IMG/VR virus record: IMGVR_UViG_3300013125_000012
Span: 1-48,853 of that record
From: a virus
Direction: 5' to 3' (one strand)
DNA: 48,853 nt
Below the pieces are notes generated by a model that worked only from the letters and a program-made list of their open reading frames with translations, had not been told where the DNA came from and searched no databases. The translations under genes and the position numbers were made by a program. This document shows, in pieces, positions 2,721 to 38,816 of this stretch; position 1 is the stretch's first letter, and each line of letters starts with the position of its first letter.

Positions 2721-4250
2721 CTAGCCAACCACCGTGATCAACTGTTCTTTCGCCCGAGTGACGGCAACATACATCAGGTTCGTTTCCTGATTGAGTTGCC
2801 AATCCTGCCGAGCGTATTTCGATGGTTGGAACTTGTCCGGGCGCAACCAGTACACGCGATTCCACTCCCTGCCTTTCGACTTGTGAATCGTGGAGAGTGT
2901 GAGATTACGTGATTTGGACCCCGGAGTGGTGTCACCGAAGAGGCGTTCGATCTGCGCTTTCAGGTCGGCTTTCGTTGCGGTGTCCGGTAGGCCGTCCATT
3001 ATAGCGTACAACGCTTCGGTTTTGTCGTTGAGGCTGTCGGCTTGCCCTTCCTTCCCCTTCGCCATTAGCTCCTGCGTGCGGGTGTTACAGTAATCCTGCA
3101 ACTTATCCCGCAGCACGCTAAGGTTCTGGATCTTCGGCCAGCGATTCGCCAGCAGCCACAGACTGTATCCGATTTCTTTTCCTTCAACGTGACAAGGGAT
3201 GCCGCGCCGAAGATAAGCGTACGCGAGTGCAATCAGTGGCCGCGTGTTTCGGCAGAGAACAGCGTCATCTGCGGTCAATTCTTCCGCTTGTGCACGGTAG
3301 AACTGATCTTCGCTGATTTCGATTGCTGAACCTTGTGGTGCGGACTCGTCACAGGTGATGTGCGAAACCCACTCCTGTGCGACAGCGACAACTGCTTTCG
3401 GACATCTGAATGTTACCGTCAACGGCAACTCGATGCATCCAAACTCGTGTTTGATGATGTCGAGTGCGTCGCTATCAGCACCGGTGAATCCGTAGATTGC
3501 CTGTGCGGGATCGCCGACTGCGACGAAACGTCCACCGGGCTTAAGCATCGCCTTAGCGAGCGCACGCCGGGTTGGATTGCTGTCCTGCGCCTCGTCTACG
3601 AGTACCCAATCGAATTGCTGCACAGTAGCTTTCGCCCTCAGCGGCATGTAGATCATGTCGTCGAAGTCGATAACCGTGTACGCACTTTCGATGCTTTTGT
3701 TGAGGATCTTGATCGATTCGGCGATTGCCTCGTCGAGCATTCCCTCCTCAACAGTCTGGGAGTAGCGTGAATCGCTGTAGCCGTTCTTGGCTACAAGCTC
3801 AGTGTCCAGGTCGAAGTGAGCGACTAGCTCATTCCACGCGGCTTTATCGTCGATCCGACTCGTAATGCCGATGCCCTGTTGCTTGGCTAGAGATACGGCG
3901 TGGTGGACAAACTCGTGCAGGTACGCGGGCGTTTCTGCGTCATCCATCAAACCGTACAGTTTCTTGCCATCAACCTTTGCGCGCGGTGCGATTGCTTTCC
4001 ACGCGCGCAGTCCGAATGAATGGAACGTGCCGGCCTGTGCAGTCACAACGTCTTCGATCTTCGACGCGATTTCGTCGGCGATCTTCTTGTTGTATGCTGC
4101 AAAGGCGACGGAGCCTTTCATCCGATGGACACCAGTTACGAGTGAGGTCGTCTTGCCGGAGCCGGCGACGGCGATAAGAATCGCGTTACCAGTCCCGGTG
4201 TCGATCCAATCGTAGAATGTCGCCTGTTGCGGCGACGGCTTCAGTGGCAT
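2721..4250 (-). CDS. UvrD/Rep-type superfamily 1 DNA helicase
   Basis: This 509-aa protein carries the SF1A helicase motifs in order. They are Walker A AVAGSGKTT (residues 28-36), motif Ia near GTFHSFG, Walker B VLVDEAQD, GDPAQAIYGFTGA (motif III), TIHKSKGREW and MYVAVTRAKEQL (motif VI). It should translocate 3' to 5' on single-stranded DNA using ATP and work in phage replication or repair. It is somewhat shorter than cellular UvrD, with reduced insertion domains. The ATG at 4250 has GGAG 9 nt upstream, and the structured element at 4292-4332 lies in its leader. It is the only large enzyme among small accessory genes. Confidence 0.93.
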   Translation of the reverse strand: MPLKPSPQQATFYDWIDTGTGNAILIAVAGSGKTTSLVTGVHRMKGSVAFAAYNKKIADEIASKIEDVVTAQAGTFHSFGLRAWKAIAPRAKVDGKKLYGLMDDAETPAYLHEFVHHAVSLAKQQGIGITSRIDDKAAWNELVAHFDLDTELVAKNGYSDSRYSQTVEEGMLDEAIAESIKILNKSIESAYTVIDFDDMIYMPLRAKATVQQFDWVLVDEAQDSNPTRRALAKAMLKPGGRFVAVGDPAQAIYGFTGADSDALDIIKHEFGCIELPLTVTFRCPKAVVAVAQEWVSHITCDESAPQGSAIEISEDQFYRAQAEELTADDAVLCRNTRPLIALAYAYLRRGIPCHVEGKEIGYSLWLLANRWPKIQNLSVLRDKLQDYCNTRTQELMAKGKEGQADSLNDKTEALYAIMDGLPDTATKADLKAQIERLFGDTTPGSKSRNLTLSTIHKSKGREWNRVYWLRPDKFQPSKYARQDWQLNQETNLMYVAVTRAKEQLITVVG

Positions 4251-4291
4251 ATGTTTGTTCTCCTGATCCTTTACTTGATGTAGAAACTTGT

Positions 4292-4332
4292 AGGCTCGTG
4301 CCTGCTTGCCGGGAATATCCGTCCACTCCCGG
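4292..4332 (-). promoter_or_regulatory. CGGAY-loop pseudoknot-capable element, copy 1
   Basis: Directly after the stop of the 71-aa gene the transcript forms an 8-bp hairpin (4309-4332, one mismatch) with loop GGACGGAT. A second hairpin AGGC-ACGA-GCCT follows at 4292-4303. The loop GGAT can also pair with GTCC just 5' of the hairpin, giving an alternative or pseudoknotted fold. Two further copies at 5131-5173 and 5489-5512 keep the loops but change the stems in a compensatory way. The helicase start is 42 nt downstream. Confidence 0.65.
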
Positions 4333-4340
4333 ACAGTAGG

Positions 4341-4556
4341 CTAGCGAGCCACCACGTGGATATCCCCGATGATCTTACCGCGGAACGTCACATTCCCCGC
4401 GAGGTCAACTTGAGCGTACCTTGGGAAGTAATCGTATCCCTTCAGTTCCTCGAAATACCGGTGGAGGGCGTGTTCGTAAGACTCTGCCTCAATAATGAAG
4501 CCCCAACCCACCGAGTGGGAAGAATGGTAGTCTACTTCGAATTTCTGCATCGCCAT
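4341..4556 (-). CDS. Hypothetical protein, 71 aa
   Basis: ATG at 4556 follows GAAAGGGG by 8 nt. The product begins MAMQKFEVDYHSSHSVGWGF, has a central helix (ESYEHALHRYFEELKGY) and ends in a short beta-rich stretch. No family is recognised. Its 5' leader contains the hammerhead ribozyme at 4613-4659, and its last 35 leader bases are nearly the same as those of the gene starting at 5436. Its stop codon TAG overlaps the conserved TAGCCTAC at the head of the next structured element. Confidence 0.6.
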   Translation of the reverse strand: MAMQKFEVDYHSSHSVGWGFIIEAESYEHALHRYFEELKGYDYFPRYAQVDLAGNVTFRGKIIGDIHVVAR

Positions 4557-4612
4557 GTCATAACCCCTTTCGCGTGTCTGCCGTCATTATCGGCGCGTGT
4601 GTCGGGTTGTAT

Positions 4613-4659
4613 CCCGCGACGCTTCCCAGCGTTTCGTCCTTACAGACTCGTCAGGCGGG
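4613..4659 (-). ncRNA. Hammerhead ribozyme (self-cleaving RNA)
   Basis: Read on the minus strand, stem I is CCCGC (4659-4655) with GCGGG (4617-4613). The first core box CTGACGA occupies 4654-4648. Stem II is GTCT/GGAC closed by a GTAA GNRA tetraloop. The second core box GAA is at 4635-4633. Stem III is ACGCT/AGCGT closed by GGGA, and the cleavage base is C at 4618. Every conserved hammerhead nucleotide is present, with stem I open, which makes it type I. Cleavage is expected between 4618 and 4617. It lies between two co-directional cistrons, so self-cleavage would separate their mRNAs about 60 nt upstream of the start at 4556. Hammerheads are known from phages and prophages; activity here is not proven. 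Confidence 0.88.
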
Positions 4660-4666
4660 CAAGGGG

Positions 4667-5101
4667 CTAACGGTAAGTGGAAATTACCGCACGCTTCACT
4701 CGGCCCCAATCGTGATCATGCGTGATTGGGCGCACCGTGTCCGGCCACGGCACTACGTAGGCGTTCCCAAACGTTTCGTTGTAAGCATCTGGTTCGTGTT
4801 CAAAGTTGATCGCGGGAGCCCAACCGATACCGCCATCGGCACCTATGACCCCGCCTGTTTCGGTATCTGTAGGATAGAGCGCAAACTGATCGACTGCGCG
4901 ATCCATATCCTCCCGGCTGATCTCGTAAGCGCGAATGGTGACTAGGAACGGATACTGCCGCGTGATCTCCCGCTCGTATTCATGGTTGATCGATACGTCA
5001 ATCATGACCGATTCGGGGATGTCGCCATCTGCCACACGTCGCCGATAGCGTCGCACAGCACTCGCATTGCACGATATGTCGCCAAAGATTGAGAAATGCA
5101 T
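4667..5101 (-). CDS. Hypothetical protein, 144 aa
   Basis: ATG at 5101 is chosen because AGAGGATC lies 2-8 nt upstream; the open frame extends to 5218 but that part overlaps the structured leader. The product begins MHFSIFGDISCNASAVRRYR and is acidic. Its MIDVSINHEYEREITRQYPF segment is followed by a likely alpha/beta domain. No known family. The TAG stop is immediately followed by the sequence leading into the hammerhead ribozyme. Confidence 0.6.
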   Translation of the reverse strand: MHFSIFGDISCNASAVRRYRRRVADGDIPESVMIDVSINHEYEREITRQYPFLVTIRAYEISREDMDRAVDQFALYPTDTETGGVIGADGGIGWAPAINFEHEPDAYNETFGNAYVVPWPDTVRPITHDHDWGRVKRAVISTYR

Positions 5102-5130
5102 TAGATCCTCTCTACTCCTAGTGTGTATTC

Positions 5131-5173
5131 GCAGTCTCGTGACTGCCGGCCGGGGATGTCCGCCCATCCCCGG
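5131..5173 (-). promoter_or_regulatory. CGGAY-loop pseudoknot-capable element, copy 2
   Basis: This is the best-formed member. A perfect 8-bp stem CCGGGGAT/ATCCCCGG (5150-5173) closes the loop GGGCGGAC, and a perfect 6-bp stem GCAGTC/GACTGC (5131-5146) closes an ACGA tetraloop. The loop bases GGAC are complementary to GTCC at the 5' foot of the first stem, which allows a bistable or pseudoknot fold. It lies 20 nt after the stop of the 80-aa gene and about 30 nt before the next start codon. Confidence 0.7.
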
Positions 5174-5193
5174 ACAGTAGGCTAACGAGAGAC

Positions 5194-5436
5194 CTAGGCA
5201 GTTTGGCACCGTTGACACTTACTATTTGGCGTGAAATGGCCGGAGCAATGATTGACCCAACGATTCAACCGTGATGCGCCCACCACCTTACGAGTAAGGA
5301 TCTCCCCGTTCCCAACGGATGCAGCGGCGGGAAAGACGTAGTAAGCTCCCAAGCCGCATTCACACTCAGAATCCCCGCACTTCCCTTTACCACTAGCGAT
5401 CTTGCTCGTATCAATGCATAGGATCATCGCTTCCAT
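5194..5436 (-). CDS. Cysteine-rich small protein, 80 aa
   Basis: The ATG at 5436 follows a full AAAGGAGG site by 7 nt, the best ribosome binding site in this cluster; the frame open to 5487 would begin inside the leader structure. The protein has CGDSECECG near residue 20 and HCSGHFTPNSKCQRC at the C-terminus, giving two potential zinc sites. A virion, DNA-binding or host-interaction role is possible, but nothing is specific. A second in-frame TAG follows 15 nt after the first. Confidence 0.6.
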   Translation of the reverse strand: MEAMILCIDTSKIASGKGKCGDSECECGLGAYYVFPAAASVGNGEILTRKVVGASRLNRWVNHCSGHFTPNSKCQRCQTA

Positions 5437-5488
5437 GTCGTAACCTCCTTTCGCGTGTGTTGCCGTCCCGATTGCTCGTGGCTGCAAA

Positions 5489-5512
5489 CCGAGAATATCC
5501 GTCTATTCTCGG
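5489..5512 (-). promoter_or_regulatory. CGGAY-loop hairpin element, copy 3
   Basis: A perfect 8-bp stem CCGAGAAT/ATTCTCGG closes loop AGACGGAT. Relative to copy 2, two pairs change G-C to A-U in both arms, so the stem is conserved by compensation. ATCC at its foot matches loop GGAT, tracking the GTCC/GGAC pair of copy 2. CACGAG follows as in the other copies, but its stem is weak here. The leader 3' of it is nearly identical to that of the hammerhead-containing leader. Confidence 0.65.
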
Positions 5513-5610
5513 ATGGTAGGCGTGCGAACGCGCGTGCTAGTGCCACGGTTGCAACTACTTGGATGCGGTGAAACTTGAGGTAACGCGGTGGTAGTTATAG
5601 CGAGATGCCA

Positions 5611-5925
5611 TCAGAACCACGCACTCCCGCAGAACGGGCATTTGTCGTCCGGTTTGCCGGTGAACGCAAACAGCGTTTTGTTGCCAACTTCCGATTGGGT
5701 AATCGCGTCGTACGAGTACAGACCGAACTTGACCGGAATGCGGACACGGTTTGCGTCACGCTTCCACGTTTGGATGCGCCCGTTCAGTCGCCATTTGTGA
5801 CACGAGGTTGTGCCACCGATAAGGTGGTAACGAGCGTGGAAGCCAGTAGCGGCCTTCAGATCATCGATCGTTGGCCCGGCATACACGCTGGGTTCACCGG
5901 GTTCACCGGGTTCAGTTGTAGACAT
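5611..5925 (-). CDS. Hypothetical protein with C-terminal CxxC, 104 aa
   Basis: ATG at 5925 follows GGAGG by 8 nt and begins three codons after the stop of the preceding small membrane-protein gene. The N-terminus has a short repeat EPGEPGEP, and the C-terminus ends KCPFCGSAWF, a single zinc knuckle. A likely beta-rich domain lies between. It may be an accessory protein that dimerises around zinc. Function unknown. The 174-nt gap downstream contains the third CGGAY-loop hairpin. Confidence 0.6.
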   Translation of the reverse strand: MSTTEPGEPGEPSVYAGPTIDDLKAATGFHARYHLIGGTTSCHKWRLNGRIQTWKRDANRVRIPVKFGLYSYDAITQSEVGNKTLFAFTGKPDDKCPFCGSAWF

Positions 5926-5928
5926 CTG

Positions 5929-6069
5929 TCATTCCTCCGAGATCATGTAGATTGCGAGAGACATGACCACGATCCCGCTGGCAATCAGTAGCAGCGGATG
6001 TCCGGTTGCTGCAAACACATACGGGAACGCAGCGGCGATGGCGAACAGTGCGCGCTTCAGATTACGCAT
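5929..6069 (-). CDS. Small two-helix membrane protein, 46 aa
   Basis: ATG at 6069 follows GAGGTAGGA. The product begins MRNLKRALFAIAAAFPYVFA and consists almost entirely of two hydrophobic segments (about 8-22 and 27-43) joined by a short GHP turn. The basic N-terminus would stay in the cytoplasm. It could be a holin-like, superinfection or membrane-associated accessory protein; size and topology alone do not decide. It is packed between neighbours with gaps of 3-5 nt. Confidence 0.55.
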   Translation of the reverse strand: MRNLKRALFAIAAAFPYVFAATGHPLLLIASGIVVMSLAIYMISEE

Positions 6070-6074
6070 TGTTC

Positions 6075-6317
6075 CTACCTCGTTGCCTGTTCGAGACTGA
6101 ATCCGAGGTCTGCACTTTCGCACATCGCACCGCAGTACGTGTAACGGAGAACGGCGCTCGTCTTCCGAATGTCGTACGCTGTCGCACACCGCGTACAAAT
6201 GTGCATGATGACCAGTAGATCACCATTTGGCGCAACTATTGCTAGCGGCGCCGCCTTGACCGTGTTCATTTTCTGATCCTTATCCCTGTTTGTTTTGCGA
6301 GAGTAGTTGTTGTCCAT
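6075..6317 (-). CDS. Small Cys-rich protein, 80 aa (two possible starts)
   Basis: Two starts are plausible. ATG 6317 has GGGAG 8 nt upstream and lies just after a promoter and hairpin. ATG 6269 has AAGGATC upstream and would give 64 aa. The shared part has HICTRCATAY and, about 18 residues on, YCGAMC, a candidate zinc-binding domain. Both ribosome binding sites look functional, so dual initiation is possible. No family is recognised. Confidence 0.55.
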   Translation of the reverse strand: MDNNYSRKTNRDKDQKMNTVKAAPLAIVAPNGDLLVIMHICTRCATAYDIRKTSAVLRYTYCGAMCESADLGFSLEQATR

Positions 6318-6331
6318 TTGTGATTCTCCCG

Positions 6332-6381
6332 CAGCACTGCCACGCGAACACATTATACTCGTTGGCAGTGCTGTGAGCCAA
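6332..6381 (-). promoter_or_regulatory. Promoter embedded in an 11-bp inverted repeat
   Basis: On the minus strand a perfect TATAAT (6357-6352) stands 18 nt after TTGGCT (6381-6376), a reasonable sigma-70 promoter for the gene starting at 6317. The -10 lies in the loop of a perfect 11-bp inverted repeat, CAGCACTGCCA at 6332-6342 with its complement at 6363-6373. The repeat could be an operator for a dimeric regulator or an RNA hairpin for transcripts coming from upstream. Confidence 0.5.
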
Positions 6382-6411
6382 TCGTCACAGGGTAACAGGT
6401 GGCAAGGCGCG

Positions 6412-6582
6412 TTACATGACGCCAAAGCCGGTAATCAACCGTGCGTGTTTCGTGCAGAGCTTCCACACTTCACCACGGCTGATCCGTGAGACGCTGAAGT
6501 CTGCACGATTCTTACATCGTGTCGTGTTGCCACGTAGTTCCGCCCACTCGCACATTGGTGTTTGTGCCGGTTCGTTGTTCAT
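6412..6582 (-). CDS. Small Cys/His protein, 56 aa
   Basis: The ATG overlaps the TGA of the upstream gene (ATGA). The product begins MNNEPAQTPMCEWAELRGNT and has a C-x11-C spacing followed later by LCTKH, a possible zinc site of the C-C-C-H type. Such small domains recur in phages as hypothetical proteins. It closes a chain of four overlapping small genes. Confidence 0.5.
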   Translation of the reverse strand: MNNEPAQTPMCEWAELRGNTTRCKNRADFSVSRISRGEVWKLCTKHARLITGFGVM

Positions 6583-6886: not shown

Positions 6887-7029
6887 CAGTTCTCGTCGCT
6901 CCATTTGGTTTCATCGGTTCGGAGGTTGGCGAGTCGGCGCTGAATGGCCGCACGTTCCGCACGGGTGTAGTCGCTGCTGATTGTCTCAACAGCTTTGGCG
7001 ATAATCGCCGAGAGCTTACCGTATTGCAC
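6886..7029 (-). CDS. 47-aa helical protein, GTG start
   Basis: GTG at 7029 follows GAAAGGATC by 6 nt. The 47-codon product begins MQYGKLSAIIAKAVETISSD and appears to be two amphipathic helices, as in small dimeric proteins. It is the first gene after the promoter region 7130-7290 and before a chain of three overlapping microprotein genes. No family is recognised. Confidence 0.5.
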   Translation of the reverse strand: MQYGKLSAIIAKAVETISSDYTRAERAAIQRRLANLRTDETKWSDEN

Positions 7030-7088
7030 TGTACTGATCCTTTCCTGTATCACGCGCGCTTAAGTATGGTTGTGTTGCACACGTGGGC

Positions 7089-7129
7089 CAGCGTACAACG
7101 ACATCTGTATCATGGATCGTTGTGCGCTG
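7089..7129 (-). promoter_or_regulatory. Leader hairpin upstream of microprotein operon
   Basis: A 13-bp inverted repeat with one mismatch (7089-7101 with 7117-7129) and a 15-nt loop lies about 60 nt before the GTG at 7029. It fits the pattern of a strong hairpin in each non-overlapping junction of this cluster. There is no T-run, so it is more likely a stabilising or regulatory leader than a terminator. Confidence 0.45.
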
Positions 7130-7290
7130 TGCCGCCGGGTGAAACCGGATCCTTTTTGCGCTTCAGTGGAACGGAATTTGCGCTTCAGTATCACAGTACA
7201 CAAGTATTCCGTACCGACTGAACAAACAGTACAATCAGTACAATCAATTGATACTGATTAGACTATTTGTTCTGTGGAAACGATGGCAAC
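7130..7290. repeat. Intergenic repeats in probable control region
   Basis: This stretch between the terminator and the microprotein operon holds two direct copies of TTTGCGCTTCAGT (7155-7167 and 7177-7189, 22 bp apart) and tandem AGTACAATC-type repeats near 7230-7250. A 22-bp period places both copies on the same face of DNA, typical of regulator sites. A clear -35/-10 pair was not found, but a promoter for the genes below 7029 is expected here because a terminator lies just upstream. Confidence 0.4.
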
Positions 7291-7351: not shown

Positions 7352-8029
7352 TTACGCGACGGGCGCCGTGGCCGCGAGTACTGGCGCGAACCAATCGAGC
7401 GTATTGCGTTCGGCTTGCATGGTTGCTGCGAGCGCGAGCGCGGCCGTTTTTTCATTGGCGGCTTTCACGGTTGCCGAGTCTCTCGTCGCAGCATAGATCA
7501 CGAGCTTGCCAGCGTTCGGGTTCGCTTTCGTGATTGTCTGGCCGCTTCGGGTTTTGCGAACGCTGACCGCATCATGGCGAACGTACAGAATGACCGCTTC
7601 ACCCTTACGTCCCTTGTCGCTCGTGTACATAGGCCAACCCTGACCGGTCCATGCATCACGAACCGCGTGAGCGAACACGGTTCCGGTTCCCAAGTCTGCT
7701 ACGGCTTTCGAGCTACCATCCGTGAGCATGTTACCATGCGCATCACGCTCGATTCGCACGATTGCTCGTGAGTCTTTTACGAGTGCTGTACGCGCCGCTT
7801 TCGCAAGCGCGGTTGCAACGGCGCGAGTGCGGTCATCGTAGCTGATCGCTTCACGCGTGCGCGTGACACTCTCACGGATTGTCTCAGTCAGTCCTAGCAG
7901 ACTGATCAGATCAAATTCTGAATCGTCTACTGGGGAGTCTGGTACGTTGCTTTCGGGTTCTGGATCGACACCCGGCAGTGTGCCAGTTGTGTCGATCGTG
8001 CTGGTGCGCACGTGCGCATTGTGAGACAT
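7352..8029 (-). CDS. Hypothetical protein, 225 aa
   Basis: ATG at 8029 follows GAAAGGATC by 10 nt. The N-terminal 45 residues are polar and disordered (MSHNAHVRTSTIDTTGTLPG). A helical segment and an Ala/Lys-rich domain follow, with a second helical Ala-rich region near the C-terminus. It ends at a strong terminator and is preceded by a long inverted-repeat leader, so it forms a single-gene unit. A DNA-binding or nucleoid-type role would fit its composition but is a guess. Confidence 0.65.
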   Translation of the reverse strand: MSHNAHVRTSTIDTTGTLPGVDPEPESNVPDSPVDDSEFDLISLLGLTETIRESVTRTREAISYDDRTRAVATALAKAARTALVKDSRAIVRIERDAHGNMLTDGSSKAVADLGTGTVFAHAVRDAWTGQGWPMYTSDKGRKGEAVILYVRHDAVSVRKTRSGQTITKANPNAGKLVIYAATRDSATVKAANEKTAALALAATMQAERNTLDWFAPVLAATAPVA

Positions 8030-8064: not shown

Positions 8065-8203
8065 CCCTAGACGGGGAGAAACCAAGTCGAATTGAACTGT
8101 TGCCAGTTCTTCCGAGTAAGTGAGCTCCCGGCGCGCAATGGTAAATGCGTACCGGTCCAGCTGCTCGTCTCTCAGTTCGACTTGGTTTCTCCCCTATCTA
8201 GGG
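8065..8203. repeat. 139-bp element with 27-bp inverted ends
   Basis: The outer arms CCCTAGA/TCTAGGG (8065-8071, 8197-8203) continue after a small bulge into a perfect 19-bp inverted repeat, 8073-8091 with 8176-8194, which reads GGGGAGAAACCAAGTCGAA inward from each end. The 84-nt centre holds further short palindromes. It lies in the leader of the 225-aa gene. It may be a large RNA or DNA hairpin, a MITE-like insertion (no target-site duplication is visible) or a protein-binding site. One minus-strand frame through it reads like protein but lacks a start codon. Confidence 0.6.
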
Positions 8204-36326: not shown

Positions 36327-38816
36327 CTACGCTGCGACTGGTTCGTATTTGTGGAGATCACCCCAGTTTTCTCCATACTCGAAGTCAACCGGGACTGGAA
36401 CGGCCAGCTTGTACGCTGACCCAAGAATTGGCGGGACGATCGTTGCAAGTGCTTCAAGTTCGGACTTTGGCCCTTCTATCACTAGTTCGTCGTGGACCTG
36501 TGCGATCAATCGTGTCTTTAGACCATGTGCGATCAGTGCCTCTTTTACGTTTAGAGTTCCAATTTTGAAGAAATCTGCGGCAGATCCCTGAATCGGCATG
36601 TTAATTGCGGCACGTTCTGCCTCAGCGCGATATTTCGGATCGCTTGCGCTGATGTCAGGAATGTAGCGGCGGCGTCCGCTAATTGATTCGACGTAGCCAT
36701 GCTTGCGACAGAACGCTTTTGTCAGCGTCTGGTAATCTCGTAGCCTCGGATACGCTTGGTAGAACAGTTCGATAAACTCGGCGGCTTCTGCAATGGTAAG
36801 CTTGAGTGAAGGTGTTCGCATCAGCAGACCCATTGGCGTCAATCCGTAAAGCACGCCGAAGCCAACAGTCTTTGCAAGATAGCGCATGTTCTTCCATGTG
36901 GCCTTGTCTACCTTTGTCTCGTCAGTCTTGTAAATCTTCCTTGCCGTGTTAGAGTGAATATCACCAACAGTTAGCTCATGGATCATGTTCTCGTCATGTG
37001 ACATGTGAGCAGCTATACGCATCTCGATCTGTGAGAGGTCTGGTGCGTACAAGTAGTTACCTTCTGAAGCGATGAACGCCTTGCGAATTGCCGAACCTTC
37101 AACTGGCATCTCGATGTCGTCACGTGTTCGTGCGGGAATGTTCTGTAAGTTAGGGTTACGTGAGGCAAGTCGGCCGGTAACCGCAACTGTTTGTGCAAAC
37201 TCACCATGAATGCGCCCAGCGTCATCCATCCACTTTGGCAACCCGATGATGTATGTTGTTCGCATCTTCCGCAGTGCACGTACTTGGAGGATGTTCTTTA
37301 CGAGCGGATTGTCGATGTGCTCCGCAAGACCTACCTTATCTGTTGGGTAGGGTGCATCCTTTTTCTTTGCTGGTGGGATCACATAAGAGTGGTCGCCGCT
37401 GTAGAGTGCTTTCTTACACTGCGGAGTCGAGACGGCATTGATCTCGTAACCAATGAGATCGATAATGGCTTCGTTTGCTAACGCCTCGGCGACAATCAAT
37501 TCGCGATTGGCGTCCTCTAACCGTGTGGGATCGAACAGGAAGCCGTTCTCTTCCATCTCAACGATGATCTCTGTGAAGTCGATCTCTGTTTGGTACAGAT
37601 GTTCGAGTTTGCGCTCGACTAGGAGATCCCAGAACACACGGTGAAGACGGAGGGAAGCGTCAGCGTCTTGTGCAGCGTACTCAGCAACAAGGTGTGGAAC
37701 CTCATCTTGAGCCGCACGCAAGTCAACCTGATACTTGCCGTTTCGAGGGTTCTTCCACTTGTATCCCATGTCGTAGAACTTGCTAATTCGGATCATCTCG
37801 ATTCCGAACATGCGGTGGAAGCCGTCTTTTAGCGAATACGGCTGGTCTCCAAGTAGCCACGCGGCAACCATCGTGTCTTTGTAGCCACGCATCTCGATGC
37901 CATAGCCGATGAGGTTATGCCTCTCGAACTTGGCATTTGACACGATCTTGATACGGTTTGGGTCTTCTAGCGCCGCTTTAAGCTGCGGAATTTTCTCGCT
38001 GGCTTCGTCGTCTGATTCGAACGGGTAGTAACAACCATTTCCGGGGGTATCACAGACGCTAAGACCGATGATGCGAGCGCGGCGCATATCTTGGTCATTG
38101 CCGTATACATCATCTCCATTGCCAGTGTCAGTTTCGAGATCGAATCCGAACTCAGCAGCACTGTTGGCGACGGCAAGAACTTCGGACCAAGTCGCGGTGT
38201 TTGTTCTGAATCCAGCAGAGGGGGCTGTGTAGGTTCCACGTTCGGCAACCTCTTTGGCTTTGGTTAAGTCTGCAACGAGCCATCCTTCAAATGCCGTACG
38301 GTTACGAGCGACGAATGCTGGATGCACACTTGGAATGATGAACCGCTTCCGGCCACGTATGACGCGTTCGTACACGTTTCCACGGATCTGCGTGATCTTT
38401 GAATCTTCGTCGGGAATGAACCACTGGTAGGCTGTATCACCGAGTGCGATGATGACATCGGGGTTAACAGTCTCCAACTCCATGTTGAGCCACGGAGTGC
38501 ACGCACGAATTTCTACGTCTGTGGCTTTGCGATTACCCGGAGGCCAGCACTTGTTAACATTGGTCCGATAGAGATCGTCGAGATTCCAACCGATCTTTGT
38601 ACACAGTTCGGCTAGTAACTTACCAGCCGTGCCAACAAACGGCTTACCTAGCCAGTTCTCATCCTTACCCGGTGACTGCGCGACGATCATTACCTTGGAA
38701 TCGTGCTGTCCGAAGCCGGGTACTACACGAATATGACCGGGCGTGTTAACAAGTGGACAGGCAACACAGCGGTTTAGACCGGGCAGGTTAAGTGGATGAG
38801 AAACAGGTGTCGGCAC
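36327..38816 (-). CDS. Uracil-DNA-glycosylase-like domain fused to family A DNA polymerase
   Basis: The 829-aa protein begins with a family 4 UDG-like domain (1-195). Four cysteines sit where the 4Fe-4S cluster is bound (C17, C20, C90, C106), with AQSPG (46-50), GKPFVGTAGKLL and the HP of PSVHPAF (165-166). The usual Glu of GEAPG is Gln47. A 3'-5' exonuclease follows (FGFDLETD with D226/E228, YAAQDAD). Then comes a Pol I core with motif A YAPDLSQIEMRIAAH, motif B KTVGFGVLYG and motif C QVHDELVIE. This is the replicative polymerase. Phage SPO1 polymerase has a comparable N-terminal domain. Confidence 0.92.
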   Translation of the reverse strand: MPTPVSHPLNLPGLNRCVACPLVNTPGHIRVVPGFGQHDSKVMIVAQSPGKDENWLGKPFVGTAGKLLAELCTKIGWNLDDLYRTNVNKCWPPGNRKATDVEIRACTPWLNMELETVNPDVIIALGDTAYQWFIPDEDSKITQIRGNVYERVIRGRKRFIIPSVHPAFVARNRTAFEGWLVADLTKAKEVAERGTYTAPSAGFRTNTATWSEVLAVANSAAEFGFDLETDTGNGDDVYGNDQDMRRARIIGLSVCDTPGNGCYYPFESDDEASEKIPQLKAALEDPNRIKIVSNAKFERHNLIGYGIEMRGYKDTMVAAWLLGDQPYSLKDGFHRMFGIEMIRISKFYDMGYKWKNPRNGKYQVDLRAAQDEVPHLVAEYAAQDADASLRLHRVFWDLLVERKLEHLYQTEIDFTEIIVEMEENGFLFDPTRLEDANRELIVAEALANEAIIDLIGYEINAVSTPQCKKALYSGDHSYVIPPAKKKDAPYPTDKVGLAEHIDNPLVKNILQVRALRKMRTTYIIGLPKWMDDAGRIHGEFAQTVAVTGRLASRNPNLQNIPARTRDDIEMPVEGSAIRKAFIASEGNYLYAPDLSQIEMRIAAHMSHDENMIHELTVGDIHSNTARKIYKTDETKVDKATWKNMRYLAKTVGFGVLYGLTPMGLLMRTPSLKLTIAEAAEFIELFYQAYPRLRDYQTLTKAFCRKHGYVESISGRRRYIPDISASDPKYRAEAERAAINMPIQGSAADFFKIGTLNVKEALIAHGLKTRLIAQVHDELVIEGPKSELEALATIVPPILGSAYKLAVPVPVDFEYGENWGDLHKYEPVAA

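Follow-up and report, generated by a model that had tools for sequence, protein, structure and literature searches.

What does a short RNA fold do when it is repeated in the gaps before three of four consecutive viral genes, while the fourth gap holds a predicted type I hammerhead ribozyme? This question is raised by the left arm of a 48.9-kb virus record (the window, meaning here the whole stretch of DNA that was analysed), in which the genes lie on the minus strand in the 5' to 3' order copy 3 of the element, 80-aa ORF, copy 2, 144-aa ORF, hammerhead, 71-aa ORF, copy 1 and UvrD-type helicase. Known ribozyme classes in phages tend to cluster near one another (PMC4604425). Small phage ribozyme classes have been discovered near known ones, and the reason for their placement between genes is unsettled; a four-gene row with one hammerhead gap and three gaps holding a repeated fold offers a direct test of a between-gene role. 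An earlier note on this DNA had seen the structured repeats but missed their outer stem, the adjacent hammerhead and further structured gaps in the row.

Measured from P1 to P1', the copies lie at 4294-4349 (copy 1, upstream of the UvrD-type helicase gene 4250-2721), 5135-5190 (copy 2, upstream of ORF 5101-4667) and 5474-5529 (copy 3, upstream of ORF 5436-5194), all on the minus strand. Aligned over 66 columns (5534-5469, 5195-5130 and 4354-4289, minus strand) they are constant at 38 columns, the constant parts being GCCUAC--UCCG, the hexaloop G-CGGA and GCAG-CACGAG. Comparison of 65-mers, copy against copy, gave 50, 44 and 41 identities of 65, against 33-36 at the best unrelated place and a maximum of 35 in 60 shuffled windows. 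When a covariance model was built from the copies, they scored 83-89 bits with it and the next independent site 11 bits. The likeness of the three copies is thus far above background and the repeated element is real. This bears out the three copies claimed in the earlier note, and likewise the CACGAG that it had placed 3' of the stem. The coordinates given there covered P2 for copy 3 and, for copies 1 and 2, P2 together with the 3' half; the whole elements are larger, and all three belong on the minus strand. A candidate fourth copy at 1630-1572 (11 bits, E 0.6) has different flanks and was not counted. The same stretch, 1572-1630 on the minus strand, forms a stable irregular hairpin (z -4.5) with the loop TGGCGGAT on a 10-bp stem at a stop codon, and the hairpin may be distantly related to the element. 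A protein reading of the repeat was rejected. In one frame copies 1 and 2 read PTVREWTDIPG and PTVRGWADIPG, which slightly resemble the start of NUMOD4 endonucleases, but Pfam finds nothing, copy 3 runs into a stop and there is no shared start codon.

The architecture of the element is an outer stem P1 of 5 bp, an irregular middle with inner strands of 12 nt and 10 nt, a 9-bp stem P2 and a hexaloop GRCGGA. The P2 hairpins, all on the minus strand, read CCGGGAGUG-GACGGA-UAUUCCCGG in copy 1 (4309-4332), CCGGGGAUG-GGCGGA-CAUCCCCGG in copy 2 (5150-5173) and CCGAGAAUA-GACGGA-UAUUCUCGG in copy 3 (5489-5512). P1 and P2 are paired in 42 of the 42 pair cells of the three copies, with changes on both sides at 4 pairs; P1 has one fully compensated pair, G-C/U-A. 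Shuffles equalled this pairing and compensation in 17 of 500 cases; no version of the fold displaced by 1-3 columns did. The compensatory stem changes described earlier are thereby upheld. The covariation for the fold rests on 4 compensated pairs among three copies, and since three sequences are few this support is fair rather than strong. What had been described as an 8-nt loop, RGRCGGAY, keeps its conserved CGGA-Y but is better written as the hexaloop closed by an R-Y pair (G-U, G-C and A-U). In copy 1 two further G-C pairs are possible outside P1. The middle region also allows a helix of GCCUAC with GCAGNC that includes a single A-C mismatch and a single variable position, although across the three copies these pairs vary in no way that tests them. 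A competing 3' hairpin, AGNC-ACGA-GNCU, is present in copies 1 and 2 and broken in copy 3.

It had also been claimed that the loop covaries with the 5' foot of the stem, suggesting a pseudoknot or switch. Every copy does carry RUCCG at the 5' foot of P2, able to pair with CGGAY of the loop. Of the five pairs so formed, however, only one covaries, and it does no better than shuffled letters (333 of 500); the other four are invariant. Because CCG and the loop-side Y are also used by P2, the RUCCG helix and P2 are mutually exclusive. The RUCCG/CGGAY pairing is therefore at most an alternative, competing hairpin, which may be a folding intermediate; as a pseudoknot or switch it is unsupported.

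The gaps in which the copies lie are not all alike. In copy 1 the stop codon of ORF 4556-4341 falls inside the 5' strand of the element and in copy 2 that of ORF 5436-5194 ends 2 nt before it, whereas copy 3 begins 82 nt past the preceding stop. The statement that all copies sit after a stop codon is thus true of copy 2. Their placement in front of ribosome binding sites stands for all three, with start codons 32-41 nt downstream of the elements, AGGA or GGAGG in each downstream ribosome binding site and 61-71 nt from hexaloop to start codon. In 4200-5620 the minus strand showed neither a promoter-like nor a terminator-like site, which makes a single transcript of the row plausible; a search of that strand in 4200-6500 likewise gave no terminator-like site, meaning a GC-rich hairpin with a U-tract. 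The element itself was rejected as an intrinsic terminator because it has no U-tract. Further upstream, a promoter-like TTGGCT-18-TATAAT (6381-6352, minus) lies inside and upstream of a perfect 11-bp inverted repeat, CAGCACTGCCA ... TGGCAGTGCTG, within 6320-6381 (minus), and together the two might serve the gene row as an operator.

The predicted hammerhead, at 4612-4660 (minus), lies in the remaining gap of the row, in front of ORF 4556-4341. Against Rfam RF00163 this stretch scores 23.2 bits (E 0.0085 over a 1.3-kb stretch), below the gathering score of 34. Its letters contain CUGANGA, GAAA, the H17 cleavage base and stems I-III, as expected of a hammerhead, and the core reads CCCGC-CUGACGA-GUC..GAC-GAAA-CGC..GCG-UC-GCGGG. 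Cleavage would give a 3' product, GCGGGAUACAACCCG, that could form a small hairpin in competition with stem I. The element itself was rejected as a hammerhead: copies 1-3 are without the CUGANGA...GAAA core, and Rfam finds only 4660-4612. What the hammerhead and the element do share is a leader. The leader after the hammerhead (4554-4587, minus, GACGGCAGACACGCGAAAGGGGTTATGACATG) matches, as read in the sequence, that after copy 3 (5434-5468, minus, GACGGCAACACACGCGAAAGGAGGTTACGACATG) through the ribosome binding site and start codon, while the RNA parts differ and the downstream proteins appear, by eye, unrelated.

Hammerheads have previously been described in rows between prophage genes, where cutting of long phage transcripts into mRNAs of single-gene or operon length was proposed (Perreault et al., PMC3088659), and in the haloviruses HF1 and HF2 a hammerhead lies 13 nt upstream of a helicase gene (PMC3088659). 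Viral contigs were scanned for hammerheads whose stem II is of the form GUC/GAC, which gave at least 120 stretches. In 114 of the listed loci there is a hammerhead with a stem I of 3 bp or more, and 109 such hammerheads away from contig ends were used for statistics of the slot, with ORFs called mechanically and rates that are accordingly rough. An upstream stop codon lay within -60 to +20 nt of the hammerhead 5' end in 79 of 109 (random places 27%), the offsets being mostly -14 to +10 and bunched near 0 to +10. A start codon followed within 110 nt in 89 of 109 (random places 55%), and both features were present in 70 of 109 (64%), compared with 14% for random positions of these loci. The contrast is large despite the rough rates. 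On one viral contig (L094, 2812-3875) three type I hammerheads lie between successive small genes, with a stop codon in or adjoining each 5' stem strand. Copies 1 and 2, the hammerhead of the window and hairpins at 2716 and 622 all occupy this slot; copy 3 lies further from its stop.

The two last-named hairpins (2648-2716 and 559-622, minus) are related to each other, of the form GCUCRCCCUCNACC ... GGUNGCGUAGAGC with covarying CNACC/GGUNG, and their 3' motif GGTGGCGTAGAG recurs before ORF 45713-44889; a search of viral sequences with their pattern gave two matches, unrelated in appearance. Elsewhere on the minus strand a strong irregular hairpin at 7078-7140 precedes the gene starting at 7029 (leader z -3.9; the plus strand folds better), and a long inverted repeat, GGGGAGAAACCAAGTCGAA ... 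TTCGACTTGGTTTCTCCCC, lies at 8075-8195 upstream of the gene starting at 8029. At 36327-38816 (minus) a uracil-DNA glycosylase domain and a family A DNA polymerase are joined in one ORF.

The claim of a new family was examined by a wide search for relatives. None of 4227 Rfam families matched the element at gathering score, and at E up to 10 only the FMN riboswitch appeared (15.8 bits against the 66 needed). Patterns of the invariant positions, applied to viral contigs and GTDB genomes, turned up nothing but stretches that lack the fold, for the most part within long open frames; such exact patterns are blind to homologues changed at those positions, and records very near this genome possibly lay outside the scans. 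With blastn against phages and plasmids there was nothing beyond one match at E=3. The earlier note had looked to a covariance model searched across phage sequences. The model built from the three copies gave no match in 20 helicase relatives or 120 hammerhead-bearing viral loci, and in 48 whole hammerhead-bearing records and two bacterial genomes it gave one match of 15 bits with two broken pairs, which is about what chance gives over 50 records; homologues with the conserved loop were not found. A search for closer relatives by the head protein and a second protein also gave none. Readings of the element as HDV-like, twister-like or preQ1-like were discarded after comparison by eye. With these patterns and this model, then, Rfam, IMG/VR and the GTDB, phage and plasmid collections yielded no homologue. 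The family therefore consists so far of three copies in one genome, and conservation cannot separate catalytic from structural positions. By these sequence comparisons the element family is new to the resources searched, and small; the claim of novelty stands on a thin base of three copies and 4 covarying pairs.

Turning to function, we regard it as an even call whether the element is a new intercistronic mRNA-processing family that does the same job as the adjacent hammerhead. Folded where two genes meet in the polycistronic mRNA, each copy would mark the point of cutting, and the downstream gene would be left on a single-gene mRNA that has a leader and a ribosome binding site of its own. The cutting agent could be the RNA itself or a host RNase such as RNase III. 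Processing is the most economical function because of the equal position, the shared leader and the ribozyme neighbourhood and, since they lie in hammerhead-type gaps, the copies probably help to split a long message into single-gene messages. The near-identical folds, compensated variable stems and constant loop and junctions of the three copies speak for this reading; the 82 nt between copy 3 and its stop, and a plus strand that folds at least as well, speak against it. Sharing a slot with a ribozyme is no proof of common function. Stems that vary beside a constant loop and constant junctions would be in keeping with a ribozyme or a protein-bound fold, and RNase III alone would not call for such constancy. 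Within the processing reading, a new small self-cleaving ribozyme class, interchangeable with the hammerhead in one phage operon, is a tentative proposal that we think unlikely to be correct. Were the three copies to cut without protein they would form a new ribozyme class; were they cut by RNase III, ribozyme and RNase sites would substitute for each other.

A protein-bound fold could also serve as a translational operator, the GRCGGA hexaloop being bound by a phage protein or by host CsrA/RsmA to make a small regulon of the downstream genes, with the bound protein possibly bridging from the hexaloop to GGA in the ribosome binding site. This too is unlikely, although the hexaloop is constant, every downstream ribosome binding site carries AGGA or GGAGG, with 61-71 nt between loop and start codon, and the element is common to several genes. 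Compared with the CsrA/RsmA consensus ANGGAN in a hairpin loop, copies 1 and 3 have ACGGAU, but copy 2 has GCGGAC; moreover, the outer stem and the constant stretches GCCUAC and GCAG-CACGAG are not needed in a CsrA site, the window proteins scanned with Pfam include none that is CsrA-like, and the hammerhead in the same slot is left unexplained. The constant loop and junctions of all three copies would likewise be superfluous in a passive insulator or stabiliser, in which uncut hairpins separate cistrons, shield the downstream mRNA from 5'/3' decay or block ribosome run-through. The stable folding of the copies, the unrelated hairpins in other gaps of the same arm and the lack of a U-tract fit such a role, which we nevertheless consider rather improbable.

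All of these readings place the element in RNA. An imperfect palindrome acting in single-stranded or extruded DNA, as a site of recombination, replication or mobility, would accord with the plus strand, on which the copies score 23-28 bits with the covariance model, fold at least as stably as on the minus strand and pair the middle helix in 16 of 18 cells, against 13 of 18 on the mRNA strand. P1 and P2 tell the other way: their complete pairing on the mRNA strand uses three G-U pairs, which become A-C mismatches on the plus strand (39 of 42 cells). Recognition of duplex DNA asks for no compensated stem changes, the R boxes of an integron attC site (RYYYAAC ... GTTRRRY) are absent, by eye, from the ends of the element, and the copies, all of them in gene gaps, share one orientation. 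We judge a DNA-level role to be very improbable; the gene-gap position favours a minus-strand RNA, and we infer that the element acts as a sense RNA.

The processing reading can be set beside several known systems. In T7-like phages, RNase III processing hairpins lie between early genes; like the element these are long imperfect hairpins in the gene gaps of an early transcript, but they have no common constant terminal loop. CsrA and RsmA bind GGA in hairpin loops, and the element similarly presents GGA in a hexaloop within a 5' leader, although it has in addition a constant outer stem and flanks and the loop of copy 2 deviates. Pistol and the other ribozyme classes found as neighbours of hammerheads (PMC4604425) share with the element a place in phage gene gaps near ribozymes and a constant loop or junctions with variable stems; the element matches none of their Rfam models, and no pseudoknot is supported in it. 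The type I hammerhead (RF00163) of phage gene rows occupies the same slot at a stop codon shortly before the next start, is likewise small with variable stems around a constant core, and has a predicted member within the same gene row, whereas the element, without the CUGANGA/GAAA core or the three-stem junction, is one long irregular hairpin.
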